Part shown: positions 6,405-60,091 of the stretch, piece after piece | Layout: each line of letters starts with the position of its first letter | Numbering within the stretch: position 1 is the stretch's first letter | Source: Erodium maritimum | Taxonomy: Eukaryota; Streptophyta; Magnoliopsida; Geraniales; Geraniaceae | DNA length: 64,000 bases | NCBI GenBank assembly: GCA_963921825.1 | Contig: OY997588.1 | Span: 12,600,001 to 12,664,000 of the forward strand | Direction of reading: 5' to 3' | Notes under the pieces: generated by a model | The model's database searches: none | What the model was told of the DNA's origin: nothing | Seen by the model: the letters and a program-made list of their open reading frames with translations, nothing else | Made by a program: the position numbers and the translations under genes

Positions 6405-6416
6405 TAATATTAATTT

Positions 6417-7642
6417 TTTTAGAAGGAATAATAATATTATTATGGAAAATAAAATAGAACGATGATCACATTGTTGTTCTCATCATACAACCAAGAAACC
6501 AGAAAGCTAATGTAATACAATAACAGAAAAGTAAACGTTGCTCTGGACATAGGGGCGGTCGAAGGGGGAAATCTGCGGTAGCATCCGAAGACACCGATAC
6601 AGCATGCTCCAACCAAATGGCACTGATCAAGCCGACCAAGTGATAAGGTAATAGTGGTGGACCGACATCTCCCCCGGCAAGTCAGCGTGCGTCGTCCTCC
6701 CTTGAGTGATACGTGTAGGGCTCCTGAACGCGGGATTGCTGACCCCGGACTAGTAGGGAAGAATCTTATCTACTGTTGATGGAACCAACGCCATCGATCA
6801 GCCAGGGAGATGGTACAACGACCAACCCCTCCCTGGGATTCCAGAGACTCATTCCTGGAGGCGGGGTGCTTGTGGCCCCACGCCGCTGTTGTGTATGACG
6901 TCCCATCGTATGCAATGGGCTGAACTTGTCGACTCGGCCTCATTCCTGCCCGGGGCAGCCAGTCCAGCCCATCTTGCCAGACACGATGGGCATCCGCGAA
7001 CAGGCCCCGGTCCAAGCCCTTGTCTCCACCACCTCGGCCCAGCCCATCACCCGAAACCCTAGCCGAGTCTGGCGCCACCTCCTTCCTGTTGCTTCTCCTC
7101 CACGGAAGAGCCACCGACGACTCCGCCGGCGATGCGTCCTTATCCGGCGACACCACAAACGGCAGGAGACCATCCCCCTTCCTGCCGGACTCCTCTGTGC
7201 CGACCATCTCCGGTCCCGGTAGCAACGTCCAACCAAACTTACCCCCGGTCTCCTTTGATCTCTCCACTGAACCACCACCCACCTTTCTCGGCCGCGACCC
7301 CTTCGTCGGGGTTCTCCGCCTGCCCCACGCCGCTGTGTGGTACCCACCCCCACGTCCCGACCCTCCTCCCCGACCTCTGGGTCGAGAAGGTTATCGGGGC
7401 GACACTCATCCCGCACGACGGCAACGGCTCTGCCGATGTGAGCGTTCCCCCCTCCATGGACACCGTCGGAGTAGCCGATCTTGCATCCTCGCATACTTCC
7501 CACTCCTACACCGCACCTATAGACACCATGATCACTGCAGAAGGAGGTTGTATCTCGCAAAACCCCTAAACCCTAGATCTCGCGTGAAAGAAGGGAGGGG
7601 TTGTGCGCCACAACTTTTGTTTTAGGGTATTAGTTAGTTCAC
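6417..7642 (-). mobile_element. Internally deleted LINE (ORF1 head plus 3' tail) with 12-bp TSD
   Basis: Exact 12-bp TSD TAATATTAATTT at 6405-6416 and 7643-7654. The T-run just inside the left end is the poly-A of a minus-strand insertion. The leader contains the plant-typical AAACCCTA. The coding part (about 7560 down to 6905) reads like the N-terminus of the ORF1 at 57526 (SPAESSVALPWRR against APPESPEAMAWRL). The last 330 bp (about 6545-6870) is the reverse complement of the 59160-59500 tail (CTGTATCGGTRTCY, GGATGCTACCGCAG, ACAGTMGATAAGAT). The DUF4283 and CCHC part is missing, so the deletion happened before this copy inserted. Confidence 0.78.
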
Positions 7643-7654
7643 TAATATTAATTT

Positions 7655-7790: not shown

Positions 7791-9480
7791 GTAGTTTTTG
7801 GGGTTTCGAAAGGAAACCAATGCGCTGTTGTTGTGACCTTATCACATCGGGACGAGGGCATCTCTCCCGCTTCCTTTCCCGTCGGAAATATCCCTTTCGC
7901 GTTCTCGTTCAACCAATGACTCTTTTGTTGAGGCCAACCCAACGGTGGAACCACCATTATTTTTGATCTGATGCTGGCGGCGCGACTATGCATCCAAGGT
8001 AGGATGAACGAGGTGTCACTCGAGGGAGACAAAGGGGTCATCATGGTCCTAGTAGGGGACTCTCACTATCGGTTTTCTCTCGCCGGTCGGCTTCTCTCCG
8101 AGAGATGTTTCAATATACTGGCCCTCTACGGTATCATGGCAACGACATGGGACATAAAAGGGGTTGGCGGTCCAACCCATGACGGACTTGGTCTTCAGAT
8201 TTTGCTTATCATCCCGAGAGGCGATGGAAGGATTCGCAACCGGGAACCATGGAATTTCCTTGAGTCCATCCTCATCCTCAAGCCCTTTCCTCATCACGTG
8301 CATCTGAATGCCTTGGTTTTCCAGTACATGCGAATAGGGATCCATGCATTTAATATTTCGGTGGAAGCTTGAACGTCCCAAGTGAGACCCATCATCAGAA
8401 ATGCACCAAGAAGAGAGGCACCATTAGGGGACCGACCTCCTCACCGCCGAGGATGGGAGGAGTATATATGGATTTTGGTGGAGATTGACGCCACCTGGCC
8501 GTTACCCTATCAAGTCTGGTTGAGTCTGATCACGTTCCGACTTCAGTACGAGAAACTTCCATATTTTTTTCTTCACTGTGTCGTCTGTGCCACACGAGCC
8601 AAGGCTACTTGGAGGTCTCTCAAGTGTGGAAAGGGTGGCTATCTGGTACAATATATCCACTAAATCCTCTATGGGGCTGTCAATTGAAGCCTTTCTCTAG
8701 ACTATTTAGGAGGCGAGGCCGACGAACAATCCGACGAGGGAGCCTCTATATACCTTTCCATATCTAACCCCACTTCCTCTCCCTCCACGACTACCAAGAA
8801 TTCCACCGTGTTTCAAGACCATCGGAATCCTTCCTCCAACACTATTGGTCTCGCTGGCCAGCACTTATATGGACCTGATTGTTCCTCGGGCCAATATCAT
8901 TCCTAAAATCCCAGCTCTAATGGGAGACCTTTTCGGCTCGACCGGGATCATGAATCACTTAGTATGAGAATGGTAAGAGTGGAGGTGACCTAGAGGATCA
9001 CCCCGATCAATGTATTGTCTAACTTGGGTCAGGATACTAGGCATACGCCTCTACCTCCAAACCCTCTAGCTCTGCCACCACTCTTAGCATCCATGTTGTC
9101 TCCACTACCAGCGCCCTCACCATCCCGAGGAGTGGGGTTGGGTGGGTCCTGAAGAAATTCTGTTTTTCGCCATTCTCAAACGACCGCGAATAAAGGACCT
9201 GAAAAGGGAAATAGTTAAGCGTTCCCATGCGGTCAAGGCCTAGTTGAAGAAATGAGATTTTGGTTTCCTGGACCTCGACCTGGGTCGGCTGTTCCAATAG
9301 GGAAAGGAAGATTAAGAGTCTTCGGCGAGGTCTGCCAATCAACCTCGCTGAGGGCCATGAAGACTGGTAGTTAGGGTTTGATGGGGGATAGAAGTCCATC
9401 GAGCCTACAAAAGGACCGACTTATCCAAATTGTCTTTCTTAGGTTAGGGCCGTTCGTTGTGCCCTAAACAACTCAAGACA
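7790..9480 (+). pseudogene. LINE ORF1 relic (DUF4283 and degenerate CCHC)
   Basis: Broken frames read as a DUF4283-type RNA-binding protein: VGDSHYRFSLAGRLLSERCFN, then LGLQILLIIPRGDGRIRN, FPHHVHLNALVFQYMRIGIHAFNI, IDATWPLPYQVWLSLITFRLQYEKLPYF, and HCVVC where the zinc knuckle should be. It aligns by eye with the 41380-41990 relic (LEAIVFQCMQMGVWAFNV). Stops and frameshifts occur throughout. No endonuclease or RT domain follows; after about 9440 the sequence becomes AT-rich. Plant ORF1 proteins of this type are nucleic-acid chaperones of L1-like elements. Confidence 0.7.
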
Positions 9481-27033: not shown

Positions 27034-27649
27034 GAGAAACCATTGCGACGCAGAATAGCCAAAAGGAACGGTCATTCCACCTTATCATATACATTACTCA
27101 TATCTAGTTTCAATGCCATATACCATACAACCCTTATTATCTTTTGTCAAAGAAAATGAATAATTTTAAAAGAGATGAGAACAATGTCCTAAATGTTGCG
27201 TCCTAGGACAAACGCCCATTGCGTTGGTACGAAGAGGTTTTTCACTAGAAGCTTGAGTCTGTATGTCAACACTTTAGTAAGGATATGAAAGATATCACGT
27301 TGCATAGAGAAACCATTGCGACGCAGAATAGCCAAAAGGAACGGTCATTCCACCTTATCATATACATTACTCATATCTAGTTTCAATGCCATATACCATA
27401 CAACCCTTATTATCTTTTGTCAAAGAAAATGAATAATTTTAAAAGAGATGAGAACAATGTCCTAAATGTTGCGTCCTAGGACAAACGCCCATTGCGTTGG
27501 TACGAAGAGGTTTTTCACTAGAAGCTTGAGTCTGTATGTCAACACTTTAGTAAGGATATGAAAGATATCACGTTGCATAGAGAAACCATTGCGACGCAGA
27601 ATAGCCAAAAGGAACGGTCATTCCACCTTATCATATACATTACTCATAT
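27034..27649. repeat. 273-bp exact tandem duplication (2.25 copies)
   Basis: Units begin at 27034, 27307 and 27580 (GAGAAACCATTGCG). Units 1 and 2 look identical by eye across all 273 bp. The third is cut off after about 70 bp. The unit lies in the RT region of the LINE relic and is 91 codons long, so the coding phase is kept. Confidence 0.95.
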
Positions 27650-27660
27650 TTAAGTAAACG

Positions 27661-28945: not shown

Positions 28946-29160
28946 TTTTAACGAAGAAACTTCCATTAATTTCTCAACTGCAAAATACAGATAAAGGCGT
29001 TTGATAGTAGAACCCAAACCTGAGTAGTAAAAAATTTAAAACATAGAAACGATAAACAGACAAGTAAAACCATGCAAAGAAAAACATAATGGGAGAACAA
29101 CTCCTTGCACATCCAGGGTAGACTGTTAGGACCTGGTCTTCGATCATGGGGGTAGGCTAT

Positions 29161-30120
29161 TGTAGTAAATCTAGTACCCCCAAGCCGGAATAAAAGACTC
29201 ACTCCGAATAAATCAAACGGATCCGTGGAAAAAGAACCGATGCGATTCAATCCACAACGGACACCGACAACCTTGATTTTTCCAACCCCCGATCCCAAGA
29301 CTTAGTCGATAAATGCTAAATGTCTGATAAGCGAAATAACCGGAACAAATAATAATAAAGTTGCAAAAAATAAACAGAGAGCCAAGCAATTTTACGTGGT
29401 TCGGCAATGTGCCTACATCCACGGGACAACGACGAGCTCCTTGTATTATCCGAGAAATAATCCGAGAATTACAAACCCTAATTCTCTATATCTCAATACA
29501 AATCGACAAACCACAAAAGAAATTAACCTATCTTTTGTTATCGATAAATAGATCAAGAAATCACTTTGTAGTCTTCTTAATTTTGTTGCACAATAATATC
29601 AAGACTGACATCAAATAATTACCTTTGCTGCCACGTGATTACAAAAGGATAGTTATTCCTTTGTCTTGAAACTGTAGCACACCAGAGCATGTAGAAATTT
29701 AACCAAGCCTTATTCATTGCTTCAACCAAAGATTAAGGAGCATTAATGATCATAATCAATGACAAAAGAGCCTCCTTGATACTTGATCCACGCAACCACT
29801 CTTTAAGTATGAATAGAATAAAAAACCACTTTGGCTACTTTCTCCTGTACTGCACAGTCAAGAGCTCTTGATCTTTGCCCAAATGATTTTGCCTCCCACA
29901 AGATTCTCTTGCTTCCTCTCCGTCCGATCTATGGAGCCGCCTACCTAGACAAGGACCCAAAAGCCCTTTTTCTCTCTGTAAAAGACGCAGCTCGGCAAGC
30001 TCTCTTCGTGTGCCCTACTGTTCATGTGTATATAACACAATAGAAATGGGCTCAAGTGATGTCAGCATGGGCTTGACTAATGGGCCTTTGGGCCTTGGCC
30101 TTTTGAGCCAAAAAATAACA
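29161..30120 (-). repeat. 3' LTR of the copia element
   Basis: 960 bp. On the plus strand it starts TGTAGTAAATC and ends AAAAATAACA. A TATATA motif near 30028 on the minus strand is a promoter candidate. The purine-rich tract AAGGTGGAGAT abuts it at about 30121-30131. Confidence 0.95.
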
Positions 30121-30219
30121 ATCTCCACCTTGGCGACAAAGCCATAAGGCTCCACCTGCTCGTCGTCCTCCACCGGGTCATAAAGACCCCACCCCGAAGG
30201 GTCCCGCCCCCGTGGGGCG

Positions 30220-32079
30220 TCAACATCGAGAAATCTTGATCAAGTTGAGACAATGCTCTAACTTGATCACCGGTACCACCTTTGTCAACATATCAGCTGC
30301 GTTTTCCTTGGTATCGACTTTTTCCAACATTACCAGTTTATCTTCAATAATATCTCTGATAAAATGAAACCTCACATCTATGTGTTTGGTCCTAGAGTGA
30401 AATACCTGATTCTTTGCCAAATGGATGGCGCTCTGACTATCACAAAGAATAGTGACATCCCTTTGAGCAACACCCAAATCTCGAACCAATCCCCGAAGCC
30501 ATATAGCCTCTTTCACTGCCTCTGTCACTGCCATGTACTCTGCTTCTGTTGTAGACAAAGCAACCACTGACTGTAACATGGACCTCCAAGATATAGGACC
30601 CATTGCCAATGTAAAACAATAACCTGTAGTCGATCGACGCTTGTCCATATCTCCAGCATAGTCTGAGTCAACATACCCCAATACAGCTAAAACTGGCGAT
30701 CTCTCATAAACCAAACCGACATCCAGTGTACCCCGAAGATACCTCAAAATCCACTTCACTGCTTGCCAATGTTGCTTCCCCGGATTCGCCATGAACCGAC
30801 TAACAACACTAATTGGATAAGCAATATCTGGACGCGTGCAAACCATGGCATACATAAGACTACCAACTGCACTCGCATAAGGAACCTTAGCCATATATTC
30901 CCTCTCATCCTCAGTGACAGGAGATAACATACTCGAGAGTTTAAAGTGAGCAGCTAAAGGAGTACTAACCGGTTTTGCCGAATCCATGTCAAAACGGCTC
31001 ATAACCTTCTCCAAGTACTTTCGTTGTGACAATGTCAACCTGCCCCGCTTCCTATCCCGAATAATCTCCATCCCAAGAATCTTCTTCACCGGACCAAGAT
31101 CTTTCATCTCAAACTCTCTGCTAAGTTGTGACTTCAGCTTATCAATTCCTATCACGCTCCTTGCAGCAATGAGCATATCATCAACATAGAGTAAAAGAAA
31201 CACAAAAGATCCATCCTTGAGCTCCTTAATAAATACACAAGGATCATACTCGCTCCTCGCATATCCCTGCTCAATCATAAAAATATCAAACCTCTTGTAC
31301 CACTGCCTCGAGGCCTGTTTCAACCCATACAATGATTTCTTCAGTTTGCATACTTTTCCTTTCTCACCAACAACATAATAACCATCGGGCTGAGACATAT
31401 ATATGTCCTCCTCCAAATCTCCATGCAAGAATGCAGTTTTAACATCAAGTTATTCGAGCTCTAAATCAAACTGCGTAGCCAATGCTAATAGGACTCGGAT
31501 ACTAGTGTGCTTTACCACCGGAGAGAATACCTCATTATAGTCCACACCTTCTTGTTGTGCATATCCCTTAGCCACCAATCTTGCCTTGTACCTTATACCC
31601 GTACAATTATCCTTGGAACTTGGAATCCCGTCTTTTACTGTAAAGATCCACTTGCACCCAATCGACCTTTTTCCCTTAGGAAGTGTAACAAGTTCCCAAG
31701 TCTGATTTTTATAAAGAGATGACATCTCCTCATCCATGGCGTCCTTCCACTCCTTTTTGTGATCATCACACAAAGCTTGCTTGTATGTGTTAGGAACATC
31801 ATAATCAGTAACCGGGAAAGCACAAGCTACCCCATCCTCATAGCCGAATCTCCGAGGTGCACGTCTGACCCTAGGTTCTCTACCCGCTACCAAAGACGGT
31901 GTCTCAATCTGCTGAACCTGTTGTTGTGTAAGGGCCTCGTTCCCATCAATAGGAACATCATCATCAATAACAGTCTCATCAGGTACCATCTGTGAAGAAC
32001 TACCTGCTTGAGAAATAGAACTAGGAGCTCCAAGCTCCACCTGATGATTATCTTCTTTGTCTTCATCATAGATATCACC
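30220..32079 (-). pseudogene. Copia reverse transcriptase and RNase H region
   Basis: 32079-31450 covers the pre-RT linker and RT N-terminus (GCKWIFTVKDG, YKARLVAKGYAQ, FSPVVKHTSIR). 31446-30220 covers the rest, with LDVKTAFLHGDLEEDIYM, the catalytic YVDD in LLLYVDDMLIAA, and RNase H with SDYAGDMDKRRSTTGY and TKHIDVRFHFIRD. A TAA stop at about 31447-31449 (expected CAA) splits the RT, and a TAG at about 32080-32082 (expected CAG) separates it from integrase. Catalytic residues look intact apart from these stops. Confidence 0.92.
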
Positions 32080-32082
32080 TCT

Positions 32083-32971
32083 CTAAATAGGAGAACCGTC
32101 CTTGCATCTCTCACACTTTGCCTGTAGCAAAGCCTCCTCATGGAATGTAACATCCCGGCTAATCACAAACTTCTGAGTTTCTGGGCACCATAACTTGTAC
32201 CCCTTCACATTCTCAGGATAACCGAGAAATATAGCCTTCTTGGCCCTCACTCCAATCTTATCCTCTTTAACTTGATAGTAAGCCGGACAACCAAATGCTC
32301 TCAAGTTAGAATAATTAGAAGGATTACCGGACCATACTTCCATAGGAACCTTGGACTCAATAGCTGATGAAGGAGAGCGGTTAATCAAGTAGCACGCCGT
32401 ATTTACTGCCTCAGCCCACCATATTCTGCCCAAACCTGCATTGGACAACATGCACCGTGCTCTCTCTAATAGGGTACGATTCATCCGCTCTGCTACCCCA
32501 TTCTGTTGTGGTGTCTTTCTCACTGTGAAATGTCTCTTGATGCCATGTTCTGCACAGAACTCCTTAAGGGGATCCTCGGTGCACTCACCGCCATTGTCAG
32601 ATCTCAAAACCTTGATCACCCTACCTGTCTGCTTCTCAACCATAGCCCTCCACTTCTTGAAAATATCCCTGACTTCATCTTTATGCTTCATGGTATAGAT
32701 CCATACTCTCTGGCTGAAGTCGTCTATAAAAAGACACAAAATACCGGGACCCACCCTTCGATGCAACTCTCGAGGGTCCCCAAACATCATTGTGGATATA
32801 ATCCACAATACCCGCGGTGTTGTGAATACCGTCACCAAAAGTGACCCTGCACTGCTTCCCATACACACAATGCTCACAAAAATCAAGCTTCTCCATCTTG
32901 TCACCGCCAAGCAAGCCACGCCTGCTCAAAGTTTTAAGTCCACCCTCACCTACATGCCCTAGACGCATGTG
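32083..32971 (-). pseudogene. Copia integrase region, frameshifted
   Basis: Begins with the zinc-binding segment (MRLGHVGEGG, CEHCVYGKQ), then the catalytic core with FIDDFSQRVWIY, LRSDNGGE, PQQNGVAERMNRTLLERAR and the C-terminal AIFLGYPENVKGYKLW. A single extra T in a T-run (about 32725) shifts the frame between VSF and IDDFSQ. A TGA (32972-32974, expected TGG) cuts it from gag-protease. Confidence 0.92.
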
Positions 32972-34330
32972 TCATAACTGTGTGCGGACCAAGATCTTCT
33001 CATCAATAACCGTGGAGACCATAACTCCACCCTCAACAACATTACCCTGAAGAAAATAGAGATTGGCATGCCTAATTGCCGATAATAGCAACATGTCACC
33101 ATGATAAACGTTGCAATAACCATTCTCACCAACATACCTGTAACCCTGAGCCTCAAGTACCCCAAGAGAAATCAACCCTCTAGCAAGATCCGGAATATGG
33201 CGTACCTCGGTTAGCTGTCTACATGACCCGTCTGCTAGCTGGAATCTGACTGTGCCAACGCCTAACATCCTGCAGGGTCGAGAATCACCCATATACACTG
33301 AGCGACCCTCCACCTCACGATAGGTGGTGAACCAGTCCCGAACCGGACAGAAGTGATAAGAAGCCCCTGTATCCAACAACCAACCATCATACAAATGATT
33401 ACTAGAACCCGCTGTCAAGGCATGCGCTAGGTCACCATCGATATGAATATCCTCAACTATCTCTGGTTCCTTAACCACATTTGCCACGCCTTTGCCCGTA
33501 TCTTGTTTGGTGCGATTGTCCTTCAAATCCGGACAATCCTTCTTGTAATGGCCTTTACGCTTACACTTGTAACACTCAACTTTAGACAAATCTCTACCCC
33601 TCGACTGAGATCGACTTCTTCTATTGTTTTTGTACTTCTTGTTTGAATTTCTTCCCCTTGAAACCGAGAGACCGTGTGCTAGAACGTCCTCGCTCACAGC
33701 ACTCTTCCTAGAAGCCTTTGCCAATATAGAATGAACAATGTCACTATACACAAACTTCTCCTTGTTCATCATAGTCATCTGATCAACAAACGGCTCCCAT
33801 TCCGGCAACAAAGAAATCAACAAGAATAAAGCCTTCTGACTATCTTCAAACTTAGCTCCCAAGCTAACACAATCCGAGTACAAGCACTCAAACTCAGTAA
33901 TATGATCAGTCATAAGTTTACCTGACTGTAGCCTGAAAGTGAAGAGCTTCTTCTGCAGGTACATCACACTCATCTGATCATTTTGAAGATACATAGCCTG
34001 AAGCTTTTCCCAAATACCCTTGGCGGTCGTCTCATCTGCAAAATTGTAAGCCACATTCCGAGAAAGACACAAACGGATCGTACTACAAGCCTTCTGATCC
34101 ATCTTGTTCCACCTCTCAAGTTGATCACCCCCTGATGGTTTATCTCCCAACGCATCAAACTGATCCAAACTAACCAGAATATCCTTACAATCCATCTGCC
34201 AAGCTTTAAAATTGTTCCGTCCATTAGATCGAAGAATATCGAACCCATGGACCTTCACATAACCCGCATCCTGAGATGTGGACGCTCTATCAGACATATT
34301 TGCAAACACAGCAATAACAGCAATAACCAA
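32972..34330 (-). pseudogene. Copia gag and aspartic protease region
   Basis: The open frame starts upstream, but the likely first Met is in MSDRASTSQ. It encodes a UBN2-type gag (GFDILRSNGRNNFKAW, WEKLQAMYLQ), a basic Arg/Ser stretch, the CCHC knuckle CYKCKRKGHYKKDC, and protease with LLDTGASYHF. It ends at the TGA at 32972-32974, which replaces a Trp codon. Confidence 0.93.
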
Positions 34331-34378
34331 TCAACTAGCCAAATAACCAGAATGCTCTGACACTAGTAGCTCAACCGG

Positions 34379-34390
34379 GCTCTGATACCA
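34379..34390 (-). other. Copia primer-binding site (initiator tRNA-Met)
   Basis: On the minus strand reads TGGTATCAGAGC, complementary to the 3' end of plant initiator tRNA-Met, two bases from the 5' LTR. Confidence 0.93.
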
Positions 34391-34392
34391 CT

Positions 34393-35352
34393 TGTAGTAA
34401 ATCTAGTACCCCCAAGCCGGAATAAAAGACTCACTCCGAATAAATCAAACGGATCCGTGGAAAAAGAACCGATGCGATTCAATCCACAACGGACACCGAC
34501 AACCTTGATTTTTCCAACCCCCGATCCCAAGACTTAGTCGATAAATGCTAAATGTCTGATAAGCGAAATAACCGGAACAAATAATAATAAAGTTGCAGAA
34601 AATAAACAGAGAGCCAAGCAATTTTACGTGGTTCGGCAATGTGCTTACATCCACGGGACAACGACGAGCTCCTTGTATTATCCGAGAAATAATCCGAGAA
34701 TTACAAACCCTAATTCTCTATATCTCAATACAAATCGACAAACCACAAAAGAAATTAACCTATCTTTTGTTATCGATAAATAGATCAAGAAATCACTTTG
34801 TAGTCTTCTTAATTTTGTTGCACAATAATATCAAGACTGACATCAAATAATTACCTTTGCTGCCACGTGATTACAAAAGGATAGTTATTCCTTTGTCTTG
34901 AAACTGTAGCACACCAGAGCATGTAGAAATTTAACCAAGCCTTATTCATTGCTTCAACCAAAGATTAAGGAGCATTAATGACCATAATCAATGACAAAAG
35001 AGCCTCCTTGATACTTGATCCACGCAACCACTCTTTAAGTATGAATAGAATAAAAAACCACTTTGGCTACTTTCTCCTGTACTGCACAGTCAAGAACTCT
35101 TGATCTTTGCCCAAATGATTTTGCCTCCCACAAGATTCTCTTACTTCCTCTCCGTCCGATCTATGGAGCCGCCTACCTAGACAAGGACCCAAAAGCCCTT
35201 TTTCTCTCTGTAAAAGACGCAGCTCGGCAAGCTCTCTTCCTGTGCCCTACTGTTCATGTGTATATAACACAATAGAAATGGGCTCAAGTGATGTCAGCAT
35301 GGGCTTGACTAATGGGCCTTTGGGCCTTGGCCTTTTGAGCCAAAAAATAACA
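34393..35352 (-). repeat. 5' LTR of the copia element
   Basis: 960 bp, differing from the 3' LTR at about 6 positions by eye (for example GCAGAAAATA against GCAAAAAATA, GTGCTTACATCC against GTGCCTACATCC). Confidence 0.95.
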
Positions 35353-36511
35353 GCTATTAGTTACCTACCCCCTATTTGGGGCCAACTAAAGAATCACACG
35401 TTTGGAGGAAATCAGCGTCCCCGTCATCCATCAACTGGTGGGTTGTGGTGTTGATGATGATGTATAGGTCAAGCGCCCACTTCATCTTGCTCGTTCGAGT
35501 ATTAAACTGACCCGTCGTAGCTCGCCCCTTCAGCTTCAAACCATTGTTTTTATTTGGACCTAGACCGCTCGAGTGTTCACGAGGTTGTTTATGCTTCCCC
35601 GGTAGATTAGGGGCCTCTATCCCCAACACTACGTGCTCCAGGGTAGGTGACTATGATCGGGTAAGGATTTGTGAGAGCAACCTTTGATGTTGCCCTTCCA
35701 CGACCGACCTGACCTCCTAAATCATGTTAGCGAGATCACAAGTCTTTGTGATCCCGGCTGATCCCAAATCCAATCATGAAGGCGCCCATTGTACTCCTAG
35801 ATCCATCCCTGCGTCATGCTCTTTATTGTATCACAAGTATTCGAAACAAATTCCCTTTCCACCGGGGAAATAGTGTCGTAAAACCTGGTAGGGGCCAGAG
35901 TCCGACCGACCATTTCCCTGTACTCCTTGGTCTCTAACGTTAGGGTCGAGTTCATGTGCTAGTCTCGGGGAGCCTCCCATTTCGTATAGAGGTGCTTCTC
36001 CGTATCCATCCCATGCGGGGGTCGGAGCGAGTCATCAAATCGAACTTCAACCTGACTTACTCTCTGGATGTGTGCCCAAAATTTCCCGATACGGTGATTG
36101 AGCCTCCCGCATCTGACACAAAATCCTAGCAACCTTTCATACTGGAGACCGATGTATGTGGTCTCCATATGACCTGTGAATCTGAGACAGATTCTCCGAC
36201 AAAGGGGCCTATTAATGTCCAGGCTGAGCGTGAACTATAAGTAATCATCCCACCGTCGAGGGGCCGGTAATGGATCCCATAAGAACTTCTTATCCAAAAT
36301 GTTGGCCTGAGTTTCTAATACGCTCCTTATTAATACAATAGAAATCGGTAAAATAAATGGGACACGACCACCATTTGTCTAATAAAAACAAATCTTCAAG
36401 AGTTCCACCTTGGATGTATTAAACCTTTAACACATATAGAATAAAACACAACTCATACATCTAAATTTATATATATAAGGACCAACAAATAACAAGGTGG
36501 GTGGCAGGGAG

Positions 36512-40363: not shown

Positions 40364-41028
40364 GGAAAAAACTACCAATACCTATGTATAACCATGTCCA
40401 TTTAACTGATGTTTATCCTGAATTGTAAAGTTAACTGATCCATACCCTAAAGTTAGGACTTGTAACTATAAATCCCAATGGGTATCTGATTTTGATCTGT
40501 TTCCATCCTTGTCTGCAATTGTTTGCTCTTGTCCTTTTTTTTCCCATTCATTAGACACATCAAAATTGTATGACCTATTTTTGGTCTCTTATTAGCTCTT
40601 CATCGAGCTTGTAATTTGGCTGCTCTGCAGCATCCTTCGTATCCAGTCTTTGGATCGAATGGATTTATGAAAAAACCTCGCTGATAAAAAAAAAACTATA
40701 AACCCCTTCTATCAGCTAAAATAACGAAAATACCCTCAGTGATAATTTTTAAATAATTGTTTTAGAATATAAATGAAGTGATTTTTTAAATAAAAATGAA
40801 GTCATTTAATAACTAAATATATATATATATATATATAACAAAAGTAATTTTTAAATATTTTTTAACATAATTATTGAAGTGTAGTTGAGAGTATTTTCGT
40901 CATTTTAGCTGACGGAGGGGTTTTGAGTTACATTTCGAAACTTAAGGGTATGTATTAGTTAACTATAAACTTCAGGGTAAACATCAGTTAAATGGGCATG
41001 GTTTTGTGTAGGTATTGGTATTTTTCCC
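40364..41028. mobile_element. Fold-back (MULE-type) element, family B, with 9-bp TSD
   Basis: TSD TAAAATATA at 40355-40363 and 41029-41037. Ends GGAAAAA...ACCAATACC and GGTATTGGT...TTTTTCCC are inverted. The arms contain TAACTGATGTTTA, CATACCCTAAAGT and their complements, around an AT-rich centre with a (TA)n run at about 40819-40836. A LINE tail is nested in the left arm. Confidence 0.85.
40477..40693 (+). mobile_element. 5'-truncated LINE 3' tail nested in the fold-back element
   Basis: Flanked by AACTATAAATCCC (40464-40476) and AACTATAAACCCC (40694-40706), a 13-bp TSD with one mismatch, and ends in an A-run. The body contains TTGTAATTTGGCTGCTCTGC and GAATGGATTTATGAAAAAAC, typical of LINE 3'UTRs. 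Confidence 0.75.
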
Positions 41029-41079
41029 TAAAATATATACAACGTTATGAAAAAAAAAACTAGATTTGTAACTCAACAC

Positions 41080-48236: not shown

Positions 48237-50235
48237 TTGCAATTGATTTTATTTCACGTTTTCGTGGGCCTTACTTCTTTAGAGAATCTTTTTAGCTATA
48301 GGCCTAGCCACCTGTTGATGTCGGTTGTTCTTGTCGCTTCTGTATCTATACCGCTGCCTACTCCACCAATAGTGATCACCACGCCTTCCTCTCCACTAAT
48401 GGTAGTCACCAACCCATCTGGCCACATCATGTCCCCGTATCCCTCTTTCGAAGTAGTCCGTCTAGTTAAAACTAGGAGGAAAAGGAACCCTAAGTCATCT
48501 CCTTATGCGTTAACTCCGACACTGGTCAATCCGATTGAGCAAACAACCATGGAAGAATATGCTCTGGCCTCTGGTAGTCTTCACCCCGGGTCTTACCTTG
48601 TATGCGTCTGTGCCAGTCAAACCAAAAAGGGGACGCAAATCTAGGGTTTCCTCTCAAACGCTACCGCAAGGGCTTGCGTAGCCATTACCTAAGGATGGTC
48701 CTGAAACCTTGGTGAAGGAGGCCTCTCGGGTCAAGGTCGAACTGCAGCGGCCCTTCGGGACTCCTCTCGACCCGATTAGGGTTTCCACCTCTTTATAAAT
48801 GTCGCCTCCACGGGTTGCGCCACCATTAATGGCAACCCTCCAAGATGGGTTCTCGGCATGCTCCATCACAGAGGACAAAGAGATGGATACCGTGGCCCCT
48901 TTCACTCCGTTAGACCCAACAGTCCTTGTCTGCCAGCGTTTTGGCATGGTGGGAAAGCTATTGGCACTGAGGCCTCCTCAAAAAGATTTCATACTGAAGA
49001 TCAAACAAGGAAATGAGGACAATCGACTTCAGGTCTGGTGGTTATAAAGACTTGAAATCGGGTGTCTATGCCTTCTATTTTGAATCTTAGAAAGCTAAGG
49101 TTTGGGTTCGCAAGAATGAACCTTGGTGTTTCAATGGTTACCCGTTGATGCTAAAGGATATTGTCAATCCAATGGAAAGGGATCTTCCCAACCTAGATCG
49201 CCTTCAGCTATTGGTACATGCAAAGGGCTTCCTACCGTTGGTTCGGATGAAAGTTATTGGGGAGGTTATTGGAGCAACTCTAGGGGAATGCATGGATGTC
49301 TCGTGTGACCAGTGGGGCTCTTACTGTGAAGGGATATTGAAGGTTCGATTTTGTATGGATCTCTACCGTCACTTGCGCCGGACAATTGTCATGCGTTTCC
49401 GAGAATTCCCGAAACCGATTTGTGTGACCCTTACTTACGACAAACTGCCCATGTTCTGCTACAACTATGGGCGAATTGGCCATGTGGCATGAGAATATGA
49501 TTGGGAGATGCCAGGGATACCCAGGTTTGATGAAAATCCCTTTTGGAATTCAAACCGGACAAGCTTGGCCAACATTATACCACTAATTGAGGTACAAAAG
49601 CAATTGGGGAGGTGAGTCCTCTAAGCTTTGCCCTGTTGATCTCGAACACTATACCTAAGGCCCCAACATCTTGAACAAGGGGAGAAATTGTAACCCCGAA
49701 CACTCTACTTAATATTCAGGTATGGGAGGCGGGGATTAAGAAGCATATGGTTCTTCCCCTAAAGGATGGCCATAGCTCGCCGATTGGGTCCACCATTCCT
49801 TCATGGGTTGTCCCATCTAAGACGATGGGAAATAAGAGAGGGTCTGCAAGACAACCCCGTGAAGATCAGGAAAGGGCTAATAAGCAGCCTCGCCAGTAGT
49901 AATGTCAGAAACTCGAGGCTTCAGGGACTTTTTTAGGGAAAGGTCTATTGTGGAAGCCCATCCTCCCAATACTATTGTTGAGTTAAAGTTTGATCGTGCT
50001 CCTTGCGACGAAAAAAGTCCTCCCCATGGGATCAAACAGATTTTAGGCACCATCTTCAGCGGTTCTTTCCAGTTTTGTTAGTTTTTCGGAGTTACATATT
50101 TTTCAAACACCATATATGGTTACAGTTAGTTTATCTCAAAGTATGTTGAATAGGTACCTTCTGGGGCAATGTTCTTTGTAATGACTCTTGTTTCCTATTA
50201 ACAAAATATCGCATCTTTCGTTCAAATAAAATTTA
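48237..50235 (+). mobile_element. LINE ORF1-only relic with 3' tail
   Basis: In order: Pro/Ser-rich N-terminus, QRFGMVGKLLALRPPQKDF, KVWVRKNEPWCFNGYPLML (DUF4283), then FREFPKPICVTLTYDKLPMFCYNYGRIGHVA, a CCHC site with its second and last Cys lost. A basic C-terminal region follows (about 49500-49900), then a T-rich 3'UTR with CTTTGTAATGACTC and CCTATTAACAAAATATCGC ending in an A-rich tail near 50230. Four or more stops interrupt it. No endonuclease or RT lies between knuckle and tail. Confidence 0.72.
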
Positions 50236-52917: not shown

Positions 52918-54415
52918 AGTGAGTTGTGGAGATAGAGTTTGATGATTGATTGTTCAAGGTAGAGAGAGGGGGAAGCAGAGGGAGGTTTATATGGAAGTGA
53001 AGAAGAGTGTGTGTTCCGAGGGTGGGCCCACCAATAATCCAATCGTTTTGTGACGGTGAGAGTTTGTACTTTGCTTTTTCTGTTTTTTTTTTAAAATTGA
53101 TTTTGGCAGTGTGACAGTGATGGACTCGGACTGGACCTGGTTATCAAGTAAACACTTTGATGGTGTTTTGTGCTCATATGCGCTTCCTCAACAAAGACTT
53201 AAAAGCGTTTGAGCTAAACATTATGCGTCGCCCCAAGTTTTCTTCCGCTTCAACATTGTTGTATACTTGTAGCTGGCTGGATTTGGAACCGCACATCCAA
53301 GTTGACCCACGTGACGGACCAGAAATAACAAACATACAAAATTTAACATTTAAAAAAAACTAAAGCAATAATCATAATCGAGTTGTTTTTTATCTGTCCC
53401 TCGATTTTGAGTCGACAGATTTGAGGATTTTTGTTTTGTAAGGTTTAGAGTCGATGCTCTATGGATCTATTTCTCTGGTGAGTTGCAGAGGTCAGAGGTG
53501 TTGTTGGATGGCCATGTAATGACTCGTATATAATTTGGTTTGGGAAGCAACATCAACGAAACAAAGTATGAAAGCGGCGAATATGGTTACTGAAGATCGC
53601 GTGACGTAGATAAGGAGGAACGTCCCACTCCTCCTTTTCCTGGACAACTCCTTGTCTACCTGGCGTTCTTCATCCCATGGAGTCTCCACCGCAGGGCCGA
53701 CGAGTATTTTAGATAACGCGGGTCCATTCGAGTACAACCAGAAGAAGTGAATCAAATGATAGATGCGCTTAATTACAAGTAAGAATAAATCCCCTAGTTT
53801 GTCACATAGATTAATTGAATATGTCCGTTATAGAGTAAGCGTTATGCGCCTATCCAAAACCATGTCTTGTGATTTTCTTTTATTATCTTAATAACAATTC
53901 CACGATGTATACTATAAAAAGTAACGCTTTAGGGTTTAGTATTGTAGGAGTTAAACAACAAACATAATTCAATTTCTTTCTCATGTGACATTGTGTTTTT
54001 CTCTTATGTATTACGAGAAAACGTTTTCTTGGATTATACTTGTTCTTATGTTGTTTCTTTTGTTATTCTTCTCATCAAGAACATGATATATGTATTATTC
54101 TTCATGATTCAAATAAAAAATTGGCCTATCCTAAAAGAACTAACATATCAATAAAAATATTCATACTCTAAATGTAAATTGATTCAAAGTGTGTGGAATA
54201 CATGACACTGCAAATTCGATTGGTCATGTGCAGGGTAATTTGATCATATTTTGTTCAAAATTGGATAGAAAAAATACAATGTAGACTAAAAAGAGTCGAA
54301 ATACCATTCAAGCAAATTTATCAGTTTTGTGTATTTATGTGGAAAAAAACTTCAATTCAAGTAAGAAAAACCGTTAAAGTGTAATCAAAAGGTATATACG
54401 AAGTTTGACGCAGCT
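52918..54415. other. Promoter of the DUF4408/DUF761 gene, then intergenic DNA
   Basis: 52918-53100 is the likely leader and promoter (TTTATATGG near 52988, GA-rich leader). 53100-54415 is AT-rich with no recognised gene. A 78-87 codon frame at 53492-53755 has no resemblance I know. Confidence 0.45.
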
Positions 54416-54744
54416 TTGCTAGGGTTTACTTCTAGAATAGGGTTTTGCGATTCCGGTCTTTCCATCTCTCACGATCATAAGTTCTGGTTCGTCTGAGGGG
54501 AGATCGACGTCTCTGATCTCAGCTGGTGCGGCAGCAAGTGAGGTCGGGGAGGAAGGGAGTCGGCCGAGGAGCCCGTGGCTGGAACAAGATGTGGAGGGGC
54601 AGGCCCGGGTCGAGCTGGAGTGGCCGGAGGGGATGGAGAGGGAGTCGATCACTCCGGTGATCTCCTCCCCGTCCGCCTGGTCCCCATGCAGAACGGAGGA
54701 GCGGTGCATGGTGTTCTCGGCGCAATAGGAGATGGGGCGTGGTC

Positions 54745-57485
54745 TGTCACGCCTCAAATTCGGTTTTGACCGGACTCGAGACGTGAACTAAAACAATAAT
54801 AATTTGAGTTGAAAATAAAGCCAACAAGTCTCCATCTCAAAATTTTAAAACTTTAAACACCGCACGAGTCACAGCTCGGTAAAAACCAACAGTAAAACAG
54901 TTGAAAATAAAACGGTACGTCTCTAGACTATCTAGCCTAGGACCCTCGTAAGCTCCCAAGCATCGAGCATCCCGCTAGTACACTTCCCGCTTAGAACCTG
55001 AAAAACAACAAAGTAAGGGGTGAGCTTTCGCTCAATAGGAAAAGTAGTTAAGGTTATAAGCAAGAGCTCACCACCACGGGTAACCGTCCAATTAGGGCAT
55101 ACTAGTACAACACACAACTAATTTCCAACGGAACCCGTAACCACACTCCTCAACTCAAGACCGAACCACACTTACGAACCAACTTAGCGAACAAACACAA
55201 ACAGCAACATCACACCAATTAAACCAATATCGAACATAAAGTAACTGTAAAAGCACAACTATTAACAGTCAAACTAACCAAGAGACGCTCTCAAATAGTC
55301 ATACCAGAATCTCTAACGGCCTATATCTCTTTCCCGGAACTCCTTCGGGCAAAGGATATATAAAACAGCCTTCCCGGAACTCCTTCGGGCAAGGCAAAGG
55401 TGAAACAACTTTCCCGGAACTCCTTCGGGCAAAGCAAAGGTGAGACAACTTCCCCGGAACTCCTTCGGGCGAAGCAAAGGATAGGTGAAACAGCTTTCCC
55501 GGAACTCCTTCGGGCAAAGCAAAAGTGAAACTACTTCCCCGGAACTCCTTCGGGCGAAGCATCAAGATAATAATACAAATGTCATAATTAAGCACGACTT
55601 ACCAAGCCTGACAATCTTACCACAACCAGTCACGTCGGTCTATCACTCACTCGACCATCATAAAACCAAGGGTTTCACATCAACACAACCACGGCACACT
55701 CGCCCACACATATCAACAACAAGCTCAACGGTTATACTAATCTTGTCTATTAACCCTAACGACAACGACTCACAAGGCAGGCATATCAAAAAACAATCAG
55801 GCAACCAAACAACACACAACCTACGGCTCGACACGGCCGATCTATCAGCACAACAATTCCCAAGATAGAAACGTAAATGTTCGCAGTTCAATCGGCTACG
55901 CTAGTTGTTCTCATCCTACATGTTACTACGACTCTTCCGGTTATTATCTGATATAAACATCTTTCCAGTTTTATTAATTCCTAATATGCATACTAGTAAC
56001 TTTCCGCAATTAAACCGGTATCCGCTACTTCCCTACCTCGACTGAAGTACAACCGCTACGACTCCTAGCTGCCGACGTCCTGGCTCGCTACCTCCGGTCT
56101 TCTCTTCGATCGAAGTCGGACTCTACTTTACACAGAAAGCTATAATTAAAACCGGTTTCACAATTTAAGTTCAAAAGTTGTCTTTTAGACTCGAGCGGGC
56201 TAAAAGTGGGACTACACGACAGATCGGGTTCGAGTACTCGAGCACAGAACCCGGTGCACGAAGTTCGAGGCACGGGTCCCAACATACGGATTTCGAGACA
56301 CGATTCCCGAAGTATAGGTTTCGAGGCACGATTTCCGAGGTACCCAATTCAGCGTTCCACTTTTATCCCGTTCTAGGTCTGAATTAACCGTCCAGTTTAA
56401 ACGTCCAGGGTTCCAACGTTCAACCGTTCAAAAACCGTTTAAAAACTAAACTGTTTTTAACCCTTCAATGATTTAAATCCAAAATTAACAAATCTCTTTT
56501 CTGTATTTCCAAATCTCTTGAATCAAGTCCAGATTTGTTCAAAGTCCAAATAAAACCGTTTTAAATCAGATCTGACTTCGTTTTCATTTTTTATTTAAAA
56601 CAGTTTTTTTTTCAAAAACTTATTTTCGTTTTATTAGTTTTCTTTTCATTTTCAAATTTTTTTGCTTCCAACCAGTTCAGATCCAAAAACGATCGGGCAA
56701 AACCAAGAAAAACAGGGAGGAAGATGTTCGTGAAAAGTCTCCGACCATCGGCGAAGACATCGCCGGCGGCCAAACCCCGTGGGTGAGAATCCCACCGTGG
56801 GGAAAGGGTGACAGTGGCAGACGGGTTGAGCACGGCGGAGATTCGCCTCAGATCCGAACGAAAACGGACTGTTCCGTCCCAGATGTGGGTGCGCACCGGC
56901 GAATCCGTCTCGGCTCGGGCCGTGCACGGCGACGGCGGGGCTCGCCGACGCTCTGGTGAAGCAGTGGAAGAAGGGTGAGAGCTCAGGAGAGAGAGCTCGG
57001 GTTTGAAGGGCGAGGTTCCGGCAATTCTCGAGCGAGGAGGGGAGGATGCCGGAGCTCGGTGCCGGCGTCTTGGGGCTGGACGGACGAGATTGAAGGCAGG
57101 AAGAGGGCCGGAGAGGACGGGCTCGGGCTCGGGACTGAGTGAGTGAGGTGGAGAGGGAGAAACGGAGAGGGAGAGGCGAGCGTGAAGTGAGAGGAAGGAA
57201 GGGGTTCGGCGCTGAGGGGAAATGAAGGGTCAAACCCAAAATTTCAGCTTTTATACCTGATGTCGTGACTGGGCTTGGGCCCAGAACCAAGTCGGGCTTC
57301 TGACGGGCCTCTGGCCGCACGGCCCAAACGAGGGAGAGGATACGGGTCTGGCCGGGTTTGCTCAGGTCTGGTCCGACCCGGTCCGAACTTTTTATCCTTT
57401 TTTTAAATAAACCGATTTTCGACCTCAACGTTCCGATCGAACGAAAATAAATAAAACAAGACTTTTTAACGAGACGGTCTTCACA
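54745..57485 (-). mobile_element. Solo LTR, about 2.74 kb, related to 43240-45789
   Basis: Begins TGTCACGCCTCAAATTCGG and ends ACGGTCTTCACA on the plus strand. The flanks are TGGTC (54740-54744) and TGGTA (57486-57490), a TSD with one mismatch. On the minus strand a clear GGTATAAAAGC TATA box (about 57249-57257) is followed by a GC-rich leader, so the LTR points left. No internal domain or PBS. A 337-codon open frame on the minus strand (57665-56652) runs in from the LINE and through LTR DNA and is not a gene. Confidence 0.78.
55331..55562. repeat. Minisatellite inside the solo LTR, 6 units of about 40 bp
   Basis: The core CCCGGAACTCCTTCGGGC recurs six times, starting at about 55334, 55374, 55413, 55453, 55497 and 55538. 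Each core is itself a hairpin (CCCGGAA...TTCGGGC). Confidence 0.93.
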
Positions 57486-57525
57486 TGGTAGGCCGGCAAG
57501 GGAGGAGGTTCGGTCGTCACGTTGT

Positions 57526-59157
57526 GTGCAGGCGGTAGGCCCGCGACTGAGAAAAAGGACGTCGCGACGTCCGGTGGTGCGAGCAGCGGAGAGGGAATTG
57601 CTGGGGTCGGAGGAAGGGTCGGGGGAGTCGCTCCGAGATGGGGAGGCTCTGATACCGATCGTCATGTCATCGGCAACGGAGTCAGCACCGCCGGAATCCC
57701 CAGAGGCGATGGCGTGGAGGTTACAGAAAGGTAAGGCGCCGGCGTCCGAGCAGCCTAGGGTTTCTGAAGGTGACGAAGGCAGGGTCGTGGGCCTGGGCTT
57801 GATGGAGGATGCTAGGCGAGCGGGCCAACCGGGGCGGTTTGGGCCGGATGGGCCTCACAAGTGGGGGCTGACGGTACAGGCGGGCTGGCAACCTCGACCC
57901 GGCTCAGGCCCGATGGGCCAAGTGCGAGGAAATAGACCGGGCTGGACAAGGGGAGGTCAGGAGGACGTGGCCCGCTGGGCAGCACGATACGGGCCGAGGT
58001 CGGGTCAGGATCAAGGAGCAGGGTCGGCTCGTGGGGCGCGTGTGGTTATGGGTCTGGATCAGGTAGACCCGGATCTGAAGCAATATCCGATCCGCGTTGG
58101 TCAGCCGGATGGGGACCCGAGCTATAACCCGTTTGCACTAAGAGGAAGAAATGAGCGTGAGACAGGGAGTCATGTAGTTGATCTCGATTCCCAGATGGGG
58201 GCGATGAAAATCAGGGAGGTGGTGGTGCCGGTCCAGGAAATCACAGGGCGGGGTAACTTAAATCGCTTTGCGATGGCAGCCAAAGTACTGACGTCTAATA
58301 AGATATACTGAAAGTCGGTGGCAGATAGGATGGAGGATGCCTGGGATATGAAGGTGGAGCCCAAACCTCTAGAGGGTGGCCTCATAGCTTTCTTCTTCAA
58401 GACAGCTAAGGACAGGGAGAGGGTCCTGCTGGGAGAACCTTGGTCGTTCTGGGACTCTCTGATTTTATTTACGGATCTGCGTGCCCATATGCAGGTCCAA
58501 GATTTTGAGTTCCACCACTTCTCTGTCTGGGCCCGTGTGTCGAATTTACATGTAAGGGCATGGACGAGGGATATGGGGTTTCGTGTGGGAAATGCTCTAG
58601 ATGTGTGTCAAGGTGTAGATGTGGATAAGGACGACCTGTGCTGGGGAGATTTCATGAAGGTCAGAATCAGGGCGGACATTAGAGTCCCTTTGCAGAGCCA
58701 GCTTTGGTTTCGGCTGTCCGTCTCTCATGTACGTACTCGTTTGGTGATTTCATACGAACATCTTCCTGAACACTGTTTTGGATGCTGCTGCGCGGGTCAT
58801 TTGTTCCCTGTATGCCCAGTGGTGGGAGGTAAAAGGGGCCCATCGCTGAAAGCACCGACGGATCCGAGATCTGGCTTGGAGAGGGCGAAGCATGAGAAGG
58901 CGATGCCGGGAACAAATTGGACGTATCTAAGAGGCTTAGGTAAGGGGGGATCTTCGTCGGGTGGGCCAAACACCCTCAGAGGTCCCAGGAGCCAAGGACG
59001 CAGGGGAGGCAACCGATCCACAGGGAGGAGGAGGCTCCGGTCGGATGGCTCCCGCGGGAAATGTCGCCATCACTTTCTGGGAAGAAACGCCTGGAGAGGG
59101 AGATGGAACCTGGGGAAGAGGAGGGATCGTCGGCGTCGGAGGGGGCGTCCAATATAG
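57526..59157 (+). pseudogene. LINE ORF1 protein: DUF4283 and CCHC zinc knuckle, one internal stop
   Basis: A long frame with a Gly/Pro/Arg-rich N-terminal half, then SQMGAMKIREVVVPV, the DUF4283 RNA-binding domain (from about 58261: WDMKVEPKPLEGGLIAFFF, VLLGEPWSFWDSLILF, HHFSVWARVSNLHVRA), LRLSVSH-type text before a complete knuckle CFGCCCAGHLFPVC (about 58779-58820), and a basic C-terminus. A TGA at 58309-58311 stands where Trp or Arg is expected (NKIY-stop-KSVADRM); otherwise the frame is open for about 540 codons. Its N-terminus is interrupted by the solo LTR upstream. ORF1 proteins bind LINE RNA and help reverse transcription. Confidence 0.82.
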
Positions 59158-59159
59158 TG

Positions 59160-59632
59160 GCGGGGGGCTGTAAGCACCCCCGCCTCCAGGATTGAGAGCC
59201 TGGAGCCCCAGGAAGGGTTTGGTCGACTGTATCCCCTTCCTGGCAGTTTGGTGGCAATGGTTCTGCCAACAGTCGATAAGATGCTTCCCTACCACTTTGG
59301 GGTCGGCAATCCCGCGTTCAGGAGCCCTACACCTATCATTTAAGGGAGGACGACGCACGCTGACTTACCGGGGGAGTTATCAGTCCACCAATGTTCAGTT
59401 GTCACCTGGTATGCTCGATTAGTGTTTTATGGTTGGCGCATACTGTATCGGTATCCAAGGATGCTACCGCAGTTCAGCCCCCGACCGCCTCTATGCATAT
59501 GAGCACAATTTATTTCTTAGCATTTATGTCTCAATTTATTTATCTTTAGCTTATTGGTTTGTAAGGGGTTTGTCGTCATACGAACACCTGTTTACTTTGC
59601 TTATTTAATAATATTGTCACTCCTCTAAAAAA
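59160..59632 (+). other. Conserved LINE 3' tail
   Basis: About 330 bp here (TAAGCACCCCCGCCTCCAGG, GATAAGATGCTTCCC, ACTGTATCGGTATCC, GGATGCTACCGCAG) matches the inverted copy at 6545-6870, followed by AT-rich 3'UTR and an A-tail. The reading frame is not kept between the two, so this looks like selected or recent non-coding sequence. Confidence 0.75.
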
Positions 59633-59647
59633 ATCTCTACAAAAAAA

Positions 59648-60091
59648 GGGTAAACTACAAATGACTACCCTTAAGTTGGGACGTTTAACTGATGCTTACC
59701 CTAAAGTTCAAAAACTACTGATGCATACCCTGTAGTTACAACGTGTAACTAGAAACCCATCTATCAACTAAAATGATGAAAATACCCTAAACTACACTTC
59801 AATAATTATTTTAAAAAAATGTTTGAAAAATCACTTTTGTTATATATATATATATATATATATATATTTACTTATTAAATGACTTTATTTTTATTTAAAA
59901 AATCACTTCATATTTATTTTAAAAAATCACTGAGGGTATTTTCTGAGGGTATTTTCGTCATTTTAGCTAACGGAAGGGGTTTCTAGTTACAAGTTATAAC
60001 TTTAGGGTATGCATCAATCGATAGTTTTTGAATTTCAGGGTAATCATCGGTTAAACGTGTCAACTTCAGAGTATGTATTTGTAGTTTACCC
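59648..60091. mobile_element. Fold-back element, family B, in the LINE A-tail
   Basis: Starts GGGTAAACTACAAATG and ends GTATTTGTAGTTTACCC. The arms are inverted (TAACTGATGCTTACCC against GGGTAATCATCGGTTA, AAATGATGAAAATACCC against GGGTATTTTCGTCATTTT). The centre holds a (TA)n run at about 59840-59867. A-runs on both sides prevent defining the TSD exactly. Related to 40364-41028. Confidence 0.82.

Follow-up and report, generated by a model that had tools for sequence, protein, structure and literature searches.

An ORF1-only LINE family in Erodium maritimum that very likely spread as a non-autonomous unit

HAL1 (half-L1) of mammals is described as a non-autonomous derivative of a long interspersed nuclear element (LINE) that encodes only the protein of the first open reading frame (ORF1p) and had several independent origins (PMC5753468). 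HeT-A, a non-long-terminal-repeat (non-LTR) element of Drosophila telomeres, carries Gag/ORF1 and no reverse transcriptase (RT); negative selection is reported to act on its Gag, and its RT is thought to be supplied by a partner (PMC5537684). Among plants, the L1-clade LINE Celine from poplar is reported to possess a DUF4283 ORF1, an A-tail and target-site duplications (TSDs) of 10-30 bp, along with ORF2, encoding an endonuclease (EN) and RT, and a 189-bp 3' untranslated region (3'UTR) (PMC11288735). In the pairs of short interspersed nuclear elements (SINEs) and LINEs described from maize and sorghum, the non-autonomous unit and an autonomous LINE have their 3'-terminal sequence in common (PMC3747384). 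The present analysis concerns a stretch of 64,000 nucleotides from Erodium maritimum (12.60-12.66 Mb of contig 1, hereafter the window) and, within it, a decayed LINE copy composed of ORF1 and a 3' tail (copy A). Copy A is very likely a member of a non-autonomous ORF1-only LINE family that spread as a unit and was presumably moved in trans by the ORF2 protein (ORF2p) of LINEs. The genome searched comprises 763 Mb in 40 contigs.

An earlier note on the window had proposed copy A as a plant counterpart of HAL1. The likeness holds for the way of working, as an ORF1-only unit has spread as a family, and here two such families occur in one genome. It does not extend to membership: the host is a plant, the ORF1 is of the DUF4283-CCHC type and is not derived from mammalian L1, and a long conserved non-coding tail and an ORF1-less daughter form that spread set the units further apart. 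The ORF1 of mammalian L1 is of the coiled-coil type. The lack of an own RT is shared with HeT-A; however, HeT-A joins chromosome ends without TSDs, whereas the units here insert internally, and in 10 of 15 copies the TSD score exceeds the control 95th percentile. Celine resembles them in its DUF4283 ORF1, A-tail and TSDs, but the families here have no ORF2. Compared with stringent SINE-LINE pairs, the unit here is protein-coding and shares just ~28 nt, weakly, with no exact partner matched. By analogy, the units appear to work like HAL1 and, in lacking RT, like HeT-A, while belonging to neither. No ORF1-only non-LTR family in plants was found in the titles and beginnings of abstracts of the open literature searched, a scope that leaves aside subscription papers and repeat databases, and no claim of first sight is made.

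Copy A consists of the following parts:

~54409-59633, plus strand: copy A as a whole, a decayed ORF1-only LINE copy with an A-run at its 3' end
54409-54744, plus strand: 5' end and ORF1 N-terminus; 14 of the 20 extended loci align here with their 5' ends
54745-57485, plus strand: insert splitting copy A and foreign to the family (2.74 kb, TG..CA ends, 5-bp flanks TGGTC/TGGTA)
57486-59195, plus strand: remaining ORF1 up to the family stop (TGA at 59193-59195; majority frame of 657 aa)
58342-58668, plus strand: DUF4283 (PF14111), Pfam E 8.1e-11, 42.2 bits against a cut-off of 27.2
58675-58818, plus strand: zf-CCHC_4 zinc knuckle, Pfam E 1.3e-4, 22 bits, under the curated cut-off of 27
59196-59626, plus strand: non-coding 3' tail, conserved among copies and in a miniature relative (copy B)
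59599-59626, plus strand: last 28 nt ahead of the A-run, similar to the 3' ends of autonomous LINEs
59627-59633, plus strand: A-run by sequence, present too in the 20 extended loci (L031-L050)

The order of DUF4283 followed by CCHC within 58315-59154 is that of ORF1 in plant LINEs of the L1 clade, with the CCHC match below threshold. No Pfam match to EN, RT or RNase H was found at E <=1 in the three forward frames from 58900 to the A-run, which bears out the earlier description of an ORF1 followed by tail and A-run. Several details of that description needed correction. ORF1, said to be near-intact with one stop, is interrupted by two in-frame stops in total and by a frameshift in its C-terminal part (as seen by comparing frames), and the start-codon position 54477 reads ATA in place of ATG (by reading the alignment by hand). 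The junction placed at 59157/59160 falls inside ORF1, the family stop lying in another frame at 59193-59195. The 5' end, given as 54420, was moved to ~54409, where the family end begins CGCAG.., and the copy proved to be split by the 2.74-kb insert, without which it measures 2.48 kb.

When the genome was searched with the tail, 2,936 candidates came up at first look; the best 40 were scored, and all of them, namely copy A and 39 others at 90-94%, contain the tail. Thirty loci were read, copy A among them. In every one a single alignment spans the ORF1 stop into the tail, so that the same junction, for which the earlier note had proposed to look, recurs in many copies; the shortest spanning alignment (L018) reaches just 22 nt above 59158. 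An ORF2 insertion at the join, which together with differing junctions was the outcome named as contrary to a family, was seen in none of the 30 loci, and thus neither was the EN and RT that mark an autonomous LINE. As only the best 40 of the 2,936 candidates were scored, a rarer relative bearing ORF2 might exist. Twenty of the loci were extended, and 14 of these are full length (2.43-2.50 kb), sharing a common 5' end (CGCAGCTCTGCTAGGGTTT or near) and a common 3' end. The remaining six (L032, L035, L036, L037, L046, and L047) are shortened, interrupted or rearranged, with shortening at the 5' side in L036, L037 and L047. The majority sequence of the 30 copies contains one ORF of 657 aa, beginning at alignment column 73 and followed by 449 columns; its predicted plan comprises a long N-terminus, DUF4283, CCHC and a charged C-terminus. 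Several lineages coexist in the tree of the family, many with support >=0.9. Within the first 40 nt of many of the extended copies, TAGGGTTT occurs once or twice, a motif presumably telo-box-like. In L032 (L003 1-187), the shortened copy is immediately preceded on its 5' side by a fragment of the ORF1 end and tail in inverted orientation.

The copies carry the marks of separate retropositions. TSD scores were compared with those of mismatched flank pairs, using 15 copies (the 14 full-length ones and L037) and 210 control pairs. Five copies (L034, L038, L044, L045, and L048) scored above all control pairs and ten above the control 95th percentile, in agreement with the expectation that the copies would be flanked by TSDs. 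At 1e-10, a comparison of the flanks among the 15 copies gave a single match, of 71%; being otherwise unrelated, the flanks point to separate insertions. The family thus shows the 3' A-runs, variable TSDs and 5' truncations of LINE-type retroposition, and, given the TSDs and A-runs, the units spread by target-primed reverse transcription. In nine copies (L038, L045, L048, and L050 among them), 1-41 nt of copy-specific sequence lie between the TSD and the element start, suggesting that transcription began slightly upstream at many source loci. These extras, like ~36 extra nt at the 5' end of copy B, are possibly small 5' transductions.

Selection on ORF1 was assessed by Fitch counts of nonsynonymous and synonymous changes (N/S) using a tree built from the 21 copies that extend sufficiently far 5', internal branches being set against terminal ones. 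For the whole ORF1, N/S was 351/398 on internal and 838/493 on terminal branches (odds ratio 0.52, p 1e-12). On internal branches, the DUF4283-CCHC region gave 90/162, i.e., 0.56 against a neutral 2.57 expected from the mutation spectrum, while the N-terminus gave 210/159 and the C-terminus 51/77. Stop changes numbered 4 on internal and 52 on terminal branches. The result changed little once CpG sites were dropped, and wrong-frame controls gave N/S of 3.6 and 4.0. The ORF1 of the family was therefore under purifying selection during its spread, as the earlier note had suggested should be checked. Since all sampled copies are without ORF2, the internal branches most simply postdate its loss, and ORF1 was kept by selection in the absence of ORF2. 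A 657-aa frame under selection in this form also sets the unit apart from SINEs, which are short and non-coding. Taken with the common junction and the TSDs, this supports the proposal of non-autonomous ORF1-only units that spread.

The tail, ~430 nt long, is for the most part non-coding and strongly conserved on internal branches. A small ORF within it (one majority frame stays open for 144 codons) was rejected as coding by the N/S of the three frames on internal branches (42/25, 53/14, and 43/19). Per site, the internal rate of change was 0.158 over the first 424 columns of the tail and 0.329, 0.291 and 0.706 at the first, second and third codon positions of ORF1; the terminal rates were 0.634 for the tail and 0.784 for ORF1. 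The tails of copies A and B are 79.2% identical over 342 columns, against only 41% protein identity between the two ORF1 N-termini across 85 positions. The consensus fold of 30 copies and copy B by RNAalifold was better than those of 60 column shuffles (z -3.3); single-sequence folds of the tail differed little from those of mononucleotide shuffles (z -0.4 to -2.3). A search of Rfam with the tail gave nothing at gathering score, the three matches at E 1.4-5.1 all falling below it.

Autonomous LINEs are abundant in the same genome. A probe for RT, recognised as RVT_1 (E 8e-36), gave 14,944 candidates, and many of the best 150 that were scored have long open frames. Both ends were examined in five autonomous LINEs, and the 3' side in a further 20. 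The ORF2 stop, placed by translating the sequence in the first five and by visual inspection in the other 20, lies ~20 nt ahead of the A-run or its remnant in the 23 of these 25 elements whose end was covered. The final 28 nt of the units were compared with the ends of 14 autonomous LINEs, of which two are almost the same, and with 129 control A-runs, which are not transcript ends. By the mean of the best three scores, the likeness gave p 0.015 for A, 0.008 for B, 0.008 for a second family represented by copy D, and 0.008 for L034; by the single best score, p was 0.023 for each of A, B, D and a further relic, E.

Copy B is a miniature form and lies elsewhere in the window:

6417-7642, minus strand: copy B, 1.2 kb, with the ORF1 N-terminus fused to the ORF1 end and tail
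7643-7654, minus strand: 5' TSD of copy B, 12 bp AAATTAATATTA, with its 3' copy at 6405-6416 (p 0.033 against mismatched flanks)
6548-6887, minus strand: tail of copy B, homologous to the tail of copy A (79.2% over 342 columns)

It keeps the tail and the 5' end, and tblastn found neither DUF4283 nor CCHC in it. A genome search with copy B gave 4,067 candidates; of the best 40 that were scored, 15, B included, cross its internal junction (ten nearly whole, one from 49 to 937, and four from 359 or 370), and 25 cover the tail only, starting at query position 742-783. Most other B-type copies share the form from ~7606 downwards, the ~36 nt at the 5' end of copy B being extra. Among ten B-type copies with both flanks read, the TSD score exceeded the 95th percentile of 90 control pairs in six, although one of these (L107) depends on a T-rich stretch; L103 and L111 scored above all 90 pairs. 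The B form most likely moved without DUF4283/CCHC of its own, and, as it spread without recognisable DUF4283/CCHC, ORF1p could be supplied in trans too. For both A and B, the possibility that LINE RNA is spliced to a constant acceptor where the tail begins was weighed and rejected, because the shared start falls inside ORF1 and the true stop lies 3' of it; for B it was also dropped because the form is an inherited internal deletion. Three further tail matches (C7:4990899-4991723, C4:8144054-8144878, and C1:143321821-143322802) have a piece of the ORF1 N-terminus ~170-270 nt upstream and are perhaps other internally deleted forms.

Other relics in the window are a copy of a second family and further ORF1 remnants:

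48255-50226, plus strand: copy D, second ORF1-only family, with the ORF1 stop at 49897-49899 and the tail at 49900-50226
35358-36300, minus strand: ORF1 remnant of copy E with a zinc knuckle (zf-CCHC_4, E 6.3e-7)
28951-29155, minus strand: 3' tail of copy E beyond an LTR-element insertion, with TSD GCTAT around the insertion
7932-8600, plus strand: copy C, relic of a DUF4283-type ORF1 on the strand opposite to B (tblastn with the A ORF1, E 4e-7)

A genome search with copy D gave 761 candidates. In 36 of the best 40 that were scored, D included, the match crosses the ORF1 stop with >=100 nt on each side, and 22 of the 40 run in one piece from position 1-6 to >=719. Among five D loci, four begin at a common 5' end and one is cut or interrupted; three of the five have TSD scores above all 20 control pairs. 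Copy D thus represents a second ORF1-only family with the same layout as A. Its majority frame is broken, and the result on ORF1 selection covers the A family only. A comparison of the A and D tails gave no likeness beyond short A-rich or chance pieces (E 0.25 or worse). The claim that copies D and E are relics of the same layout was upheld in part: a zinc knuckle was matched in both, weakly in D (0.0075), a Pfam scan of two pieces of D and of one frame of E found no ORF2 domain in those stretches, and multiplication as a family was established for D. Copy C had no Pfam match at E 1. The LTR element within relic E (29161-35352, ~6.2 kb) is a young insertion, with LTRs of 961 bp that are 99.4% identical and TSD GCTAT.

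The insert of copy A (54745-57485) holds CCCGGAACTCCTTCGGGC tandem units. Its ends adjoin matches in L035, L046 and L074; because they recur there, the insert is a multi-copy repeat and, in copy A, probably a solo LTR, as far as can be judged from its ends. A MITE-like (miniature inverted-repeat transposable element) repeat occupies 59648-60091 inside the A-tail of copy A and has a second copy at 40694-41033 (81% over 308 columns). The window is not free of RT, as a LINE RT relic lies at 27653-26641 on the minus strand. This relic carries a 273-bp block repeated head to tail at 27034-27652 with 99-100% identity.

Other origins have to be weighed against the spread of an ORF1-only unit. Copies of LINEs do decay, and RT-bearing LINEs are abundant, so full-length insertions might have lost ORF2 independently after insertion. 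This explanation is refuted for the sampled copies of A and D and can hardly be credited in general: the junction is identical in 30 of 30 loci, whose flanks, among the 15 compared, are unrelated save one weak match, and the TSDs enclose the ORF2-free unit. Moreover, as autonomous LINEs have ~20 nt after ORF2, its deletion alone would not leave a tail of 430 nt. The copies could also be processed pseudogenes derived from a single host gene of the DUF4283/zinc-knuckle type or from a few, i.e., domesticated ORF1 copied by LINEs as any mRNA might be, in which case the selection observed would be that of the host gene. Lone DUF4283/CCHC genes are known in plants, and TSDs, A-runs and selected internal branches fit this origin equally. 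It is nevertheless improbable, given the LINE-like 3' ends of A, B and D, the coexistence of several lineages with support >=0.9 for many, the differing 5' extras in nine copies, as if from many source loci, the multiplication of the deletion form B on its own, and the same plan in a second family with an unrelated tail.

A composite origin is somewhat less improbable, though still unlikely: the RNA of ORF1 would have gained an unrelated non-coding RNA (SINE-like or a host 3'UTR) that now drives mobility, much as in SVA-type elements, with ORF1 riding along. The tail is slower than ORF1 on internal branches, has no real match to the D tail and no Rfam match at gathering score, yet has a consensus fold that beats column shuffles; besides, B retains the tail and drops most of ORF1. 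However, an ORF1 under purifying selection is not a passenger, and the composite concerns the origin of the tail more than the mode in which the unit spread.

Several observations weigh against an ORF1-only unit moved in trans. None of the 15 sampled copies spanning ORF1 has it intact, each containing 1-8 in-frame stops, so that the A family may be dead. Among the five autonomous LINEs compared, none shares the A tail, four have an ORF1 28-32% identical to that of A while the fifth gives no match, and neither an autonomous partner nor the closest autonomous kin was found. The likeness of the last 28 nt is not significant for E on mean scores (p 0.11) and includes an AATAAA-like poly(A) signal, which may explain part of it. 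The final 38 columns of the element, where the LINE-like end lies, show no slowness on internal branches (rate 0.47). As the copies were chosen by tail similarity to A, part of the slowness of the tail is due to the selection of the sample; the terminal rates suggest that this accounts for about a fifth. No TSD was found for copy A itself, five of the 15 copies have no TSD above control, and, in the five extended loci outside the TSD test, none was seen in L032, L036 and L047 and only weak ones in L035 and L046. Finally, in the B form ORF1 is dispensable in cis.

Spread as an ORF1-only unit still best accommodates the whole, and a mechanism can be outlined from the features of the sequences. 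RNA would be transcribed from many source copies and coated by ORF1p. The ORF2p of co-resident RT-bearing LINEs would then nick the target and, acting in trans, reverse-transcribe the unit RNA from its LINE-type 3' end and A-run onward, and the tail might act as a cis element that aids the capture of ORF2p or ORF1p. Mobilisation in trans by LINE ORF2p is most likely, as is thought for HAL1 and HeT-A, the 28-nt end likeness being the observation that bears on it. More tentatively, and perhaps a little less probably than its opposite, the window could document a parasite chain of two steps, from an autonomous LINE to an ORF1-only unit with the tail as its ticket to ORF2p, and on to an ORF1-less miniature that borrows both proteins. 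The plan would then have arisen at least twice (A/B and D), the split between ORF1 and ORF2 would be recurrent and selected, and ORF1p would be useful in cis.

ORF1-only non-LTR families have already been described in mammals (HAL1) and flies (HeT-A). If the interpretation of copy A and its relatives is true, plant annotations may contain many lone DUF4283/CCHC 'genes' that belong to mobile units, and the tail would provide a concrete RNA for asking what the ORF2p of plant LINEs recognises and why ORF1 is kept without ORF2.

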